From NCBI GenBank assembly GCA_029968055.1, contig JASCNX010000003.1, positions 186,001-250,000 on the forward strand: a stretch of 64,000 nucleotides of DNA. Direction: 5' to 3'. The notes under the pieces were generated by a model. That model worked only from the letters and a program-made list of their open reading frames with translations, was not told the origin of the DNA and made no database searches. The translations under genes were made by a program, and so were the position numbers. Source of the DNA: Xenophilus aerolatus (GTDB lineage: Bacteria; Pseudomonadota; Gammaproteobacteria; Burkholderiales; Burkholderiaceae_C). Of this stretch, positions 22,982 through 25,806 are shown piece after piece (the stretch's first letter is position 1; every line of letters begins with the position of its first letter).

Positions 22982-24442
<1,461 letters not shown>

Positions 24443-24458: not shown

Positions 24459-24487
24459 TTTCCGATTCGGGATCCTTGTGCTAGAGT
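24459..24487 (+). promoter_or_regulatory. Candidate promoter of the aroG leader
   Basis: An extended -10 TGCTAGAGT (24479-24487) lies 16 bases after TTCCGA (24460-24465). If correct, transcription would begin within a few bases of the leader-peptide ATG, making it nearly leaderless. Weak -35 match; an upstream promoter is also possible. Confidence 0.35.
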
Positions 24488-24495
24488 CGCTCCCC

Positions 24496-24573
24496 ATGCC
24501 TGCCTCGCGCGCTTCTTTTTACTTTGCCTACTTTTGGTTCCCGGACTCCGGCGGACGAGTGGCCCGCGCTTAA
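24496..24573 (+). CDS. Aromatic-rich leader peptide of aroG (attenuation)
   Basis: A 25-residue ORF whose residues 8-15 read FYFAYFWF: four Phe, two Tyr and one Trp, that is seven aromatic residues in eight. It starts 186 bases before aroG and is followed by a hairpin with a T-tract. This is the layout of ribosome-mediated attenuators such as those of pheA and trpE. The mix of Phe, Tyr and Trp codons matches the end products of the pathway that DAHP synthase opens. The ribosome site is weak (AGAG about nine bases upstream). Peptide expression itself is not shown by sequence. Confidence 0.8.
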   Translation: MPASRASFYFAYFWFPDSGGRVARA

Positions 24574-24607
24574 CAGCAGACAGACCGAACCCCTCGAGAA
24601 CCGCCGG
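24548..24607 (+). promoter_or_regulatory. Antiterminator pairing in the aroG leader
   Basis: CCGGCGG at 24548-24554, inside the end of the leader ORF, is an exact complement of CCGCCGG at 24601-24607, which is the 5' arm of the terminator. The two hairpins are mutually exclusive. A four-base CCGG/CCGG hairpin (24541-24551) could protect the upstream segment when no ribosome stalls. Fits regions 1-4 of a classical attenuator; pairing is inferred by hand. Confidence 0.65.
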
Positions 24608-24630
24608 TGCGAAAGCCCCGGCGGTTTTTT
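24599..24630 (+). terminator. Intrinsic terminator of the aroG attenuator
   Basis: Arms AACCGCCGG (24599-24607) and CCGGCGGTT (24618-24626) form nine pairs. An inner GC-GAAA-GC cap follows after one mismatch, and six T residues run from 24625 to 24630. It lies 52 bases before the aroG ATG, so it would stop transcription before the gene. Confidence 0.8.
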
Positions 24631-24681: not shown

Positions 24682-25806
24682 ATGAGCCCCAAAGCCACCC
24701 CCGGCACCAGCGAGTCCTGGTATGCGCAACCCGTCGAGAAGACCAGCCAGACCGACGACCAGCGCATCAAGGACATCAACGTGCTTCCTCCGCCCGAACA
24801 CCTCATCCGCTTCTTCCCCATCGGCGGCACGCCGGTGGAACGGCTGATCGGCCAGACCCGCCATGCCATCCACAACATCATGGCCGGCAAGGACGACCGG
24901 CTGCTGGTGGTGATGGGACCCTGCTCCATCCACGACCCGGCCGCCGCGCTGGACTATGCGCGGCGCCTGAAGGCCGAGCGCGAGAAGTACGCCGGCACGC
25001 TGGAGATCGTGATGCGCGTGTACTTCGAGAAGCCGCGCACGACGGTCGGCTGGAAGGGCCTGATCAACGACCCGTACCTGGACGAGAGCTACCGCATCGA
25101 CGAGGGCCTGCGCATCGCGCGCCAGTTGCTCATCGACATCAACCGCCTGGGCCTGCCGGCGGGCAGCGAGTTCCTCGACGTCATCTCGCCGCAGTACATC
25201 GGCGACCTGATCGCCTGGGGCGCCATCGGCGCGCGCACCACCGAGAGCCAGGTGCACCGCGAGCTGGCCTCGGGCCTCTCGGCACCCATCGGCTTCAAGA
25301 ACGGCACCGACGGCAACATCCGCATCGCCACCGATGCGATCCAGGCAGCGGCGCGCGGCCACCATTTCCTGTCGGTGCACAAGAACGGCCAGGTTGCCAT
25401 CGTGCAGACCAACGGCAACCGGGACTGCCACGTGATCCTGCGCGGCGGCAAGGCGCCCAACTACGACGCGGCCAGCGTGGCCGCGGCCTGCGCCGACCTG
25501 GAAGCGGCCAAGCTGCCGCCCACGCTGATGGTCGACTGCAGCCACGCCAACAGCAGCAAGCAGCATCAGAAGCAGGTCGACGTCGCCACGGACATCGCCG
25601 GGCAGATCGCCGGTGGCAGCCGGCGCGTGTTCGGCGTGATGGTCGAAAGCCACCTGCAGCCCGGCGCCCAGAAGTTCACGCCCGGCAAGGACCGCATCGA
25701 CGCGCTGGCCTACGGGCAGAGCATCACCGACGCCTGCCTGGGCTGGGACGATTCGGTGGGCGTGCTCGAGACGCTGTCGCAGGCGATCAAGCAGCGCCGC
25801 GGCTGA
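24682..25806 (+). CDS. aroG: 3-deoxy-7-phosphoheptulonate synthase (DAHP synthase, class I)
   Basis: A 374-residue AroG/AroF/AroH-type enzyme that condenses phosphoenolpyruvate and erythrose 4-phosphate, the first step of aromatic amino acid synthesis. Motifs: VVMGPCSIHDPAAALDYA, MRVYFEKPRTTVGWKG, GFKNGTDGNI, DCSHANSSK and the late GVMVESHL. The paralog type (Phe-, Tyr- or Trp-sensitive) cannot be set with certainty from sequence. Expression is probably attenuated by the aromatic leader peptide just upstream. The ATG follows AGAGGAAG. Confidence 0.95.
   Translation: MSPKATPGTSESWYAQPVEKTSQTDDQRIKDINVLPPPEHLIRFFPIGGTPVERLIGQTRHAIHNIMAGKDDRLLVVMGPCSIHDPAAALDYARRLKAEREKYAGTLEIVMRVYFEKPRTTVGWKGLINDPYLDESYRIDEGLRIARQLLIDINRLGLPAGSEFLDVISPQYIGDLIAWGAIGARTTESQVHRELASGLSAPIGFKNGTDGNIRIATDAIQAAARGHHFLSVHKNGQVAIVQTNGNRDCHVILRGGKAPNYDAASVAAACADLEAAKLPPTLMVDCSHANSSKQHQKQVDVATDIAGQIAGGSRRVFGVMVESHLQPGAQKFTPGKDRIDALAYGQSITDACLGWDDSVGVLETLSQAIKQRRG

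Follow-up and report, generated by a model that had tools for sequence, protein, structure and literature searches.

Attenuation of transcription through leader peptides is a classic mechanism, and some of its leaders are multivalent, such as those of ilv (Ile, Val and Leu) and thr (Thr and Ile). Accounts of how 3-deoxy-7-phosphoheptulonate (DAHP) synthase is controlled mostly draw on E. coli, in terms of TyrR, TrpR and isozymes. In this report, we describe a leader upstream of the DAHP synthase gene aroG of Xenophilus aerolatus. Like the ilv and thr leaders, it involves several amino acids, but different ones: it has codons for Phe, Tyr and Trp together.

Comparable arrangements have been described in distant organisms, among them C. 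glutamicum, which belongs to another phylum than X. aerolatus. According to the excerpts available from two reports, the C. glutamicum aroR leader precedes aroF and contains Phe-Tyr-Phe, and Phe limitation acts on it, while Tyr supply is without effect (PMC11802643, PMC4046766). Like the X. aerolatus leader, aroR therefore combines an aromatic leader peptide with attenuation before a DAHP synthase gene. It differs in that these excerpts mention no Trp and in its indifference to Tyr, and the likeness is one of resemblance only. The uORFC-13-1 motif, predicted upstream of aroF and reported only from Acholeplasma and environmental sequences, also places a uORF with at least one Phe codon and a terminator before a DAHP synthase gene; unlike the aroG leader, it has a ribosome-binding site, and the part of the source at hand describes no mix of Phe, Tyr and Trp (PMC8632094). 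The leaderless leader ORF and attenuation of Sinorhizobium meliloti trpL resemble those proposed here, but that system is Trp-dependent and its gene is trpE(G), as the accessible portions of the reports state (PMC7298713, PMC10117765). In the sections available of two surveys, Shewanella aroF is listed as "Attenuator sensing tyr-tRNA" (PMC2659441), and attenuators are predicted before tyrA operons, one of them in Bordetella parapertussis (PMC1173090). The available part of a further paper (PMC2965389) mentions neither aroG nor DAHP. A literature search on titles and the beginnings of abstracts brought no report of an aroG leader in Burkholderiales or other Pseudomonadota to our notice.

The Phe_leader family of Rfam (RF01859), found before pheA and pheS, is likewise Phe-rich, ends in a terminator and has the same switch geometry in the folding model described below. 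It differs in the genes that it precedes, and its Rfam model matches none of eight aroG-leader loci. Searching Rfam for a matching leader family had been suggested when the locus was first read, and no family emerged. With Rfam 15, the X. aerolatus leader has no match at the gathering threshold, and at an E-value of 10 it has two weak matches to unrelated families. Membership in an Rfam family was thus ruled out: 0/8 aroG-leader loci were matched, as against 4/4 pheA or pheS loci (RF01859). We regard as new the aroG leader family, its breadth, the retention of a mixed Phe/Tyr/Trp run both in the bacterial family and in another class, and the apparently leaderless start.

The aroG leader of X. 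aerolatus

A sequence-only reading of the window (the whole 64-kb stretch of X. aerolatus DNA that was analysed) had proposed that a ribosome-mediated attenuator controls aroG. This reading is supported by a leader, a terminator and an antiterminator that are conserved across relatives. Judging from the sequences and the folding model, we consider it highly probable that the element controls aroG through ribosome-mediated attenuation of transcription, in the manner of trpL and pheL. Its features are as follows.

22982-24442, + strand: tldD, the upstream neighbour of the aroG leader.
24479-24487, + strand: extended -10 element TGC-TAGAGT (consensus in the family, TGTGCTACATT), separated from the leader ATG by 8 nt; recognised by its pattern and by near-invariant columns.
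24496-24573, + strand: leader ORF MPASRASFYFAYFWFPDSGGRVARA, 25 amino acids, from ATG (24496-24498) to TAA (24571-24573), probably leaderless; seen in the sequence, with counterparts in relatives.
24517-24540, + strand: control codons FYFAYFWF (Phe, Tyr, Trp); seen in the sequence, and antitermination in the stall model extends as far as this run.
24537-24544, + strand: region 1, able to pair with region 2 (protector hairpin); from the minimum-free-energy fold.
24548-24562, + strand: region 2 (CCGGCGG and CGAG), which would form the antiterminator's 5' side; from stall-model pairing with 24593-24607 and pairing across alignment A3.
24593-24607, + strand: region 3 (ACCGCCGG), shared by the antiterminator (as its 3' side) and the terminator (as its 5' arm); from alignment pairing and the stall model.
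24618-24630, + strand: region 4 (CCGGCGGTTTTTT), comprising the intrinsic terminator's 3' arm together with the T run; from the sequence, the fold and a script applied to relatives.
24682-25806, + strand: aroG, type I DAHP synthase, the controlled gene; TIGR00034, 532.6 bits.

The 25-residue ORF with FYFAYFWF ahead of aroG was borne out base for base. This run holds four Phe, two Tyr and one Trp. Of all eight-residue windows without a stop, in any of the six frames of the 64 kb, a single one contains seven aromatic residues, which is the leader's own, and the two windows with six both overlap it. A chance ORF was ruled out by this uniqueness together with conservation in relatives.

Downstream of the ORF, AACCGCCGG (24599-24607) and CCGGCGGTT (24618-24626) form a GC-rich stem of nine pairs, which can be extended to 12 outer pairs plus two inner ones. 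Six T follow at 24625-24630, two of which also belong to the stem. The hairpin and T run, both already recognised in the first reading as lying between leader and aroG, are an intrinsic terminator by form. The same reading had pointed to CCGGCGG at 24548-24554 as an alternative partner of the terminator's 5' arm. This pairing holds, and the putative antiterminator extends beyond the seven bases originally noted: 24548-24554 can pair with 24601-24607, and 24556-24559 with 24593-24596.

The leader lies inside the 239-nt gap between tldD and aroG, both of which are on the + strand. The aroG start codon (ATG at 24682) is preceded by GAGGAAG and is located about 50 nt from the terminator. In a profile search, aroG is the sole aroFGH (TIGR00034) match in the X. 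aerolatus genome, and no match to type II DAHP synthase was found there. A second PF00793 match was rejected as a DAHP synthase, being KdsA beside PyrG. On these sequence grounds, the cell appears to have no DAHP synthase besides AroG. Since no other such gene was found in the genome, a single leader would govern how much enters the shikimate pathway as a whole, in agreement with the original suggestion that it gates entry to this pathway. Elsewhere, three genomes of one genus (G330, G220 and G404; genus code g162) carry a tandem pair of aroFGH genes directly behind the leader.

Conservation within the family

Relatives were collected by the closest AroG proteins. Among the best 80 named loci listed, a leader rich in aromatic codons occupies the same position in 74. 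The other six comprise one locus at a contig end (L050) and five without a leader, namely four from Polynucleobacter (L083, L085, L087 and L088) and one from Cupriavidus (L084); all six were left out. We also dropped L028, in which the script located no terminator, though covariance model R2 (below) finds the element. The resulting near set consists of 73 loci plus the window, or 74 leaders; L060, whose leader is atypical, is counted but was omitted from the stall model. Two further Polynucleobacter loci (L066 and L073) carry the leader, so its absence from the other four suggests loss or a different paralogue. In one of those four (L083), the end of a tldD-like gene, recognised by eye, lies close upstream of aroG.

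R2, the second covariance model, was built from a wider alignment and has matches, counted irrespective of the gene behind each, in 150/150 sampled genomes of the family, representing 115/115 genera. Eight of the 150 genomes have a second match, four of these before leuA and four without a convincing leader. An exact 21-base coding pattern, by comparison, occurs in just 10/200 family genomes, because the codons vary. The sequence-only reading had made its case depend on conservation of the leader and the hairpin in relatives, and both are conserved. The terminator was located by script in 74/75 leaders, including that of the window.

Evidence for the alternative structures was assessed on A3, a model-based alignment of 84 sequences in which the antiterminator is not part of the model's structure. 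The seven core pairs of the antiterminator are formed in 90.4% of cells, compared with at most 54.7% when slid, and both sides of a pair have changed in 30 cells versus 12.2 in shuffles. Counted by pair, such double changes do not exceed those in shuffles (2 pairs versus 1.7). The alignment was fitted to the terminator, in which 96.4% of cells are paired (at most 61.1% when slid) and 45 cells have changed on both sides (16.5 in shuffles); pairs with a double change again do not outnumber those in shuffles (3 versus 2.0). One position of regions 2, 3 and 4 reads C-G-C in 26 of the 84 rows and T-A-T in 20, and its region 2-3 Watson-Crick pairs number 53, versus 28.6 in shuffles. Such a three-way change is expected if region 3 can pair with either partner.

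Kinship inflates these covariation counts. The AroG tree leaves three independent supported pairs, with 2.5 on average in the expected direction, and a sign test on these three is not significant. The antiterminator pairing is itself retained across base changes in the alignment. RNAalifold found almost no covariation in the close set, since the terminator there is nearly invariant. Compared with shuffles, the duplex energy of the antiterminator reaches p ≤ 0.05 in 36/74 and 33/63 leaders, so energy alone does not prove an antiterminator in each leader. A further helix of the antiterminator, between GAG and CTC or variants of them, can be seen in many sequences. The protector hairpin between regions 1 and 2 is weakly supported, with 92.2% of cells paired, hardly better than the 90.5% of the control slid by +2.

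The promoter region is conserved as well. The pattern TGnTAnnnT ends 6-9 nt 5' of the leader ATG in 73/74 near leaders, versus a mean of 0.3 in shuffled controls, whereas an SD-like motif precedes the leader ORF in only 1/74 near and 5/66 wider leaders (the wider set is defined below). Among leaders from outside the family, just 18/57 have the exact pattern (0.3 in shuffles), and the promoter has therefore diverged there. Within the X. aerolatus genome, the exact pattern GTGCTANANT followed by ATG matches this leader only; the reversed control pattern has three matches. With an extended -10 box 6-9 nt from its ATG, the leader ORF looks leaderless, and transcription would start at or next to this ATG. 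That the promoter position makes the leader look leaderless is an addition to the first reading.

The hairpin might instead serve to end transcription coming from tldD, in which case the short ORF would be a by-product of a U-rich promoter-proximal stretch and the aroG promoter would lie downstream. We consider this very improbable. It is true that tldD ends just upstream, at 24442, on the same strand, and that among leaders for which 400 nt or more of upstream sequence is available, tldD is found on the same strand within 1000 nt in 56/73 near and 19/57 wider cases. However, in the rest (17/73 and 38/57), the leader is retained with no nearby tldD and so is not tied to that gene. Also, the extended -10 element lies between tldD and the leader, and region 2 covaries with the terminator arm.

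Another explanation is that the leader controls translation, through access to the aroG start, or acts in trans as a small RNA or peptide in the manner of S. meliloti rnTrpL and peTrpL, either instead of or besides termination. Attenuation would indeed yield a small leaderless mRNA, about 135 nt long, which is the rnTrpL layout as described in the available portions of PMC7298713 and PMC10117765. Against this explanation, which we judge unlikely, five columns of the T run are T in 74/74 leaders, as befits an intrinsic terminator, and the alternative pairing engages the terminator arm, not the aroG start.

The second R2 matches upstream of leuA deserve mention here. In four family genomes (L219, L220, L221 and L225), the same extended -10 element (TGTGCTAYATT) occurs a few bases before an ATG upstream of leuA (2-isopropylmalate synthase by NCBIfam), with Leu-rich leader ORFs and terminator-like hairpins. 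From these sequences, a leaderless attenuator layout may be common to several biosynthetic genes of the lineage.

Distribution in the order, class and phylum

The first covariance model, R1, was applied to 250 genomes of the order. It has matches in 68 of them, all before an AroG homologue (68/68), and by our criterion a leader is present at 66 of the 68. The two exceptions, L157 and L159, have lost most aromatic codons but kept the hairpins, with both terminator and region 2, a possible decay of sensing. These 68 loci form the wider set. The genome of the window is among them (L099), and some of their species may also be represented in the near set. For structural work, L157 and L159 were excluded by the criterion, L121 and L156 because the script found no terminator, and L151 because it found the wrong one, leaving 63. 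The 2.2-kb stretch of L156 contains a second weak R2 match (L156:267-450, minus strand, 22.1 bits).

The other 182 of the 250 order genomes lack an R1 match. Among 20 of these, 15 have an AroG homologue, and none of the 15 has a convincing leader: 14 fall below the leader criterion, and L171 just reaches it with a GTG-start frame that we judged unconvincing. The device is therefore patchy at the level of the order.

At the level of the class, 10/281 genomes were matched. Three are family members already known, and four lie outside the order (L161-L164) and have an AroG homologue preceded by an aromatic leader. For the remaining three, no AroG homologue was found in the fetched stretch. The AroG proteins of L161-L164 are only 59-63% identical to that of the window, unlike that of Solimonas sp. 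SE-A11 (L034), which is 84% identical and has a Comamonadaceae-like leader. The Solimonas locus could represent transfer, or a mislabelled or mixed assembly.

Across the phylum, 35/199 genomes were matched, 15 previously found and 20 representing new loci. Fifteen of these 20 have leaders such as MITVATNYFWYFSYDSSLAAGGSRSI; all 15 contain Phe, Tyr and Trp, and in 15/15 the next ORF is a TIGR00034 DAHP synthase. By kinship, these 15 genomes presumably belong to another class, Alphaproteobacteria. Four of the five remaining loci are leaders of pheA or pheS, which Rfam assigns to Phe_leader. In the fifth, L209, the leader is Trp-rich and is not matched by Rfam. Near one of the other-class aroG loci, there is a cobalamin riboswitch (L204:46-231, minus strand; RF00174, 116 bits).

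Predicted ribosome stalling and the amino acids that may be sensed

In the mechanism that we propose, the RNA would begin at the leader ATG or no more than a few bases from it, and a ribosome would translate the leader with its run of Phe, Tyr and Trp codons. When a needed charged tRNA is short, the ribosome would stall on the run and leave region 2 (24548-24562) free. Folding and conservation suggest that region 2 would then pair with region 3 (24593-24607), so that no terminator forms and aroG is transcribed. When translation is fast, the ribosome would cover region 2, ending at the stop codon just past it. Region 3 would then pair with region 4, and transcription would end before aroG. We infer in this way that termination responds to amino acid supply.

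This scheme was modelled by placing the front edge of the ribosome 12 nt past the first base of the A-site codon and folding the stretch from that edge to the end of the terminator's 5' arm, as a static calculation. For the X. aerolatus leader, the predicted region 2-3 pairing is 0.99-1.0 with A-site codons 2-14, 0.71 at F15 and at most 0.02 from codon 16 onward; past codon 15, pairing of region 3 with other bases still amounts to 0.40-0.62. We modelled 136 leaders, consisting of 73 of the 74 near and 63 of the 66 wider leaders, with the window's own genome in both sets. On average, region 3 is sequestered at 0.80 with the ribosome ahead of the run, at 0.92 with it on aromatic codons, at 0.28 once it is past the run and at 0.18 when it has reached the stop codon. 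Offsets of 10 and 14 nt leave the picture unchanged. In the absence of a ribosome, sequestration of region 3 averages 0.44 and 0.51 and is 0.61 in X. aerolatus, which also speaks for only weak protection by the hairpin between regions 1 and 2.

The switch point lies 0-2 codons past the last aromatic codon in 66/73 near, 51/63 wider and 13/15 other-class leaders, and at +1 or +2 in 4/4 control leaders that Rfam calls Phe_leader. L209, whose leader contains FWWSFWW, gives no boundary. In this static folding model, stalls on aromatic codons are thus predicted to free the antiterminator, and stalls beyond them mostly not. Stalls before the run also antiterminate (mean 0.80), so the model alone does not single out the aromatic codons. 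Also, because any stall up to the run works, it treats the three amino acids alike as to which of them matters.

The first reading had suggested that one leader would sense all three amino acids. In the near set, Phe, Tyr and Trp occur together in 68/74 leaders, Phe and Tyr in five and Phe alone in one. In the wider set (n = 66), all three occur in 30 leaders, Phe and Tyr in 31, Phe alone in four, and Phe and Trp in one. The mixed run is therefore kept among close relatives, but in under half of the wider set. We found no support for a connection between Trp and a single DAHP synthase: among the 66 wider leaders, Trp is present in 13/35 single-copy and 18/31 multi-copy cases (Fisher p 0.14), the opposite direction to that expected.

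One interpretation is that Phe, or Phe and Tyr, is all that matters and that Trp and some Tyr codons are tolerated passengers. Phe is the commonest residue, with means per leader of 4.34 Phe, 1.51 Tyr and 0.96 Trp in the near set and 4.61, 1.88 and 0.58 in the wider set, from which Trp is missing in 35/66 leaders. Also, C. glutamicum aroR responds to limitation for Phe, not Tyr, in the part of the report available (PMC11802643). However, Trp is retained in the 68 near leaders noted above and in 15/15 other-class leaders. Of 121 nonsynonymous changes at aromatic codons between nearest pairs, 46 swap one aromatic residue for another. Moreover, the Trp codon of X. aerolatus is the last at which the predicted region 2-3 pairing is 1.0. 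A leader dominated by Phe is a possibility that we view with some doubt.

The most far-reaching interpretation, to which we give somewhat less than even odds, is that the leaderless peptide constitutes an OR gate for Phe, Tyr and Trp at the entry to the shikimate pathway, such that one gene would do the job that isozymes and TyrR/TrpR do in E. coli. The device would be old in Pseudomonadota (Burkholderiales, a few other lineages of the class, and another class), and its leaderless layout would have been reused before leuA.

The leader could be useful for engineering the production of aromatic compounds and for annotation, as such short ORFs are easily missed. It adds one more lineage of apparently leaderless attenuator ORFs, and its mixed codons pose a direct question: can a ribosome integrate three amino acids at one switch? 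More broadly, the leader points to a regulatory RNA family, unmatched by Rfam, that stands where a central metabolic pathway begins in a large bacterial group. Given that the same device is present in many relatives, a stalled ribosome very probably turns the pathway on when these amino acids are scarce.
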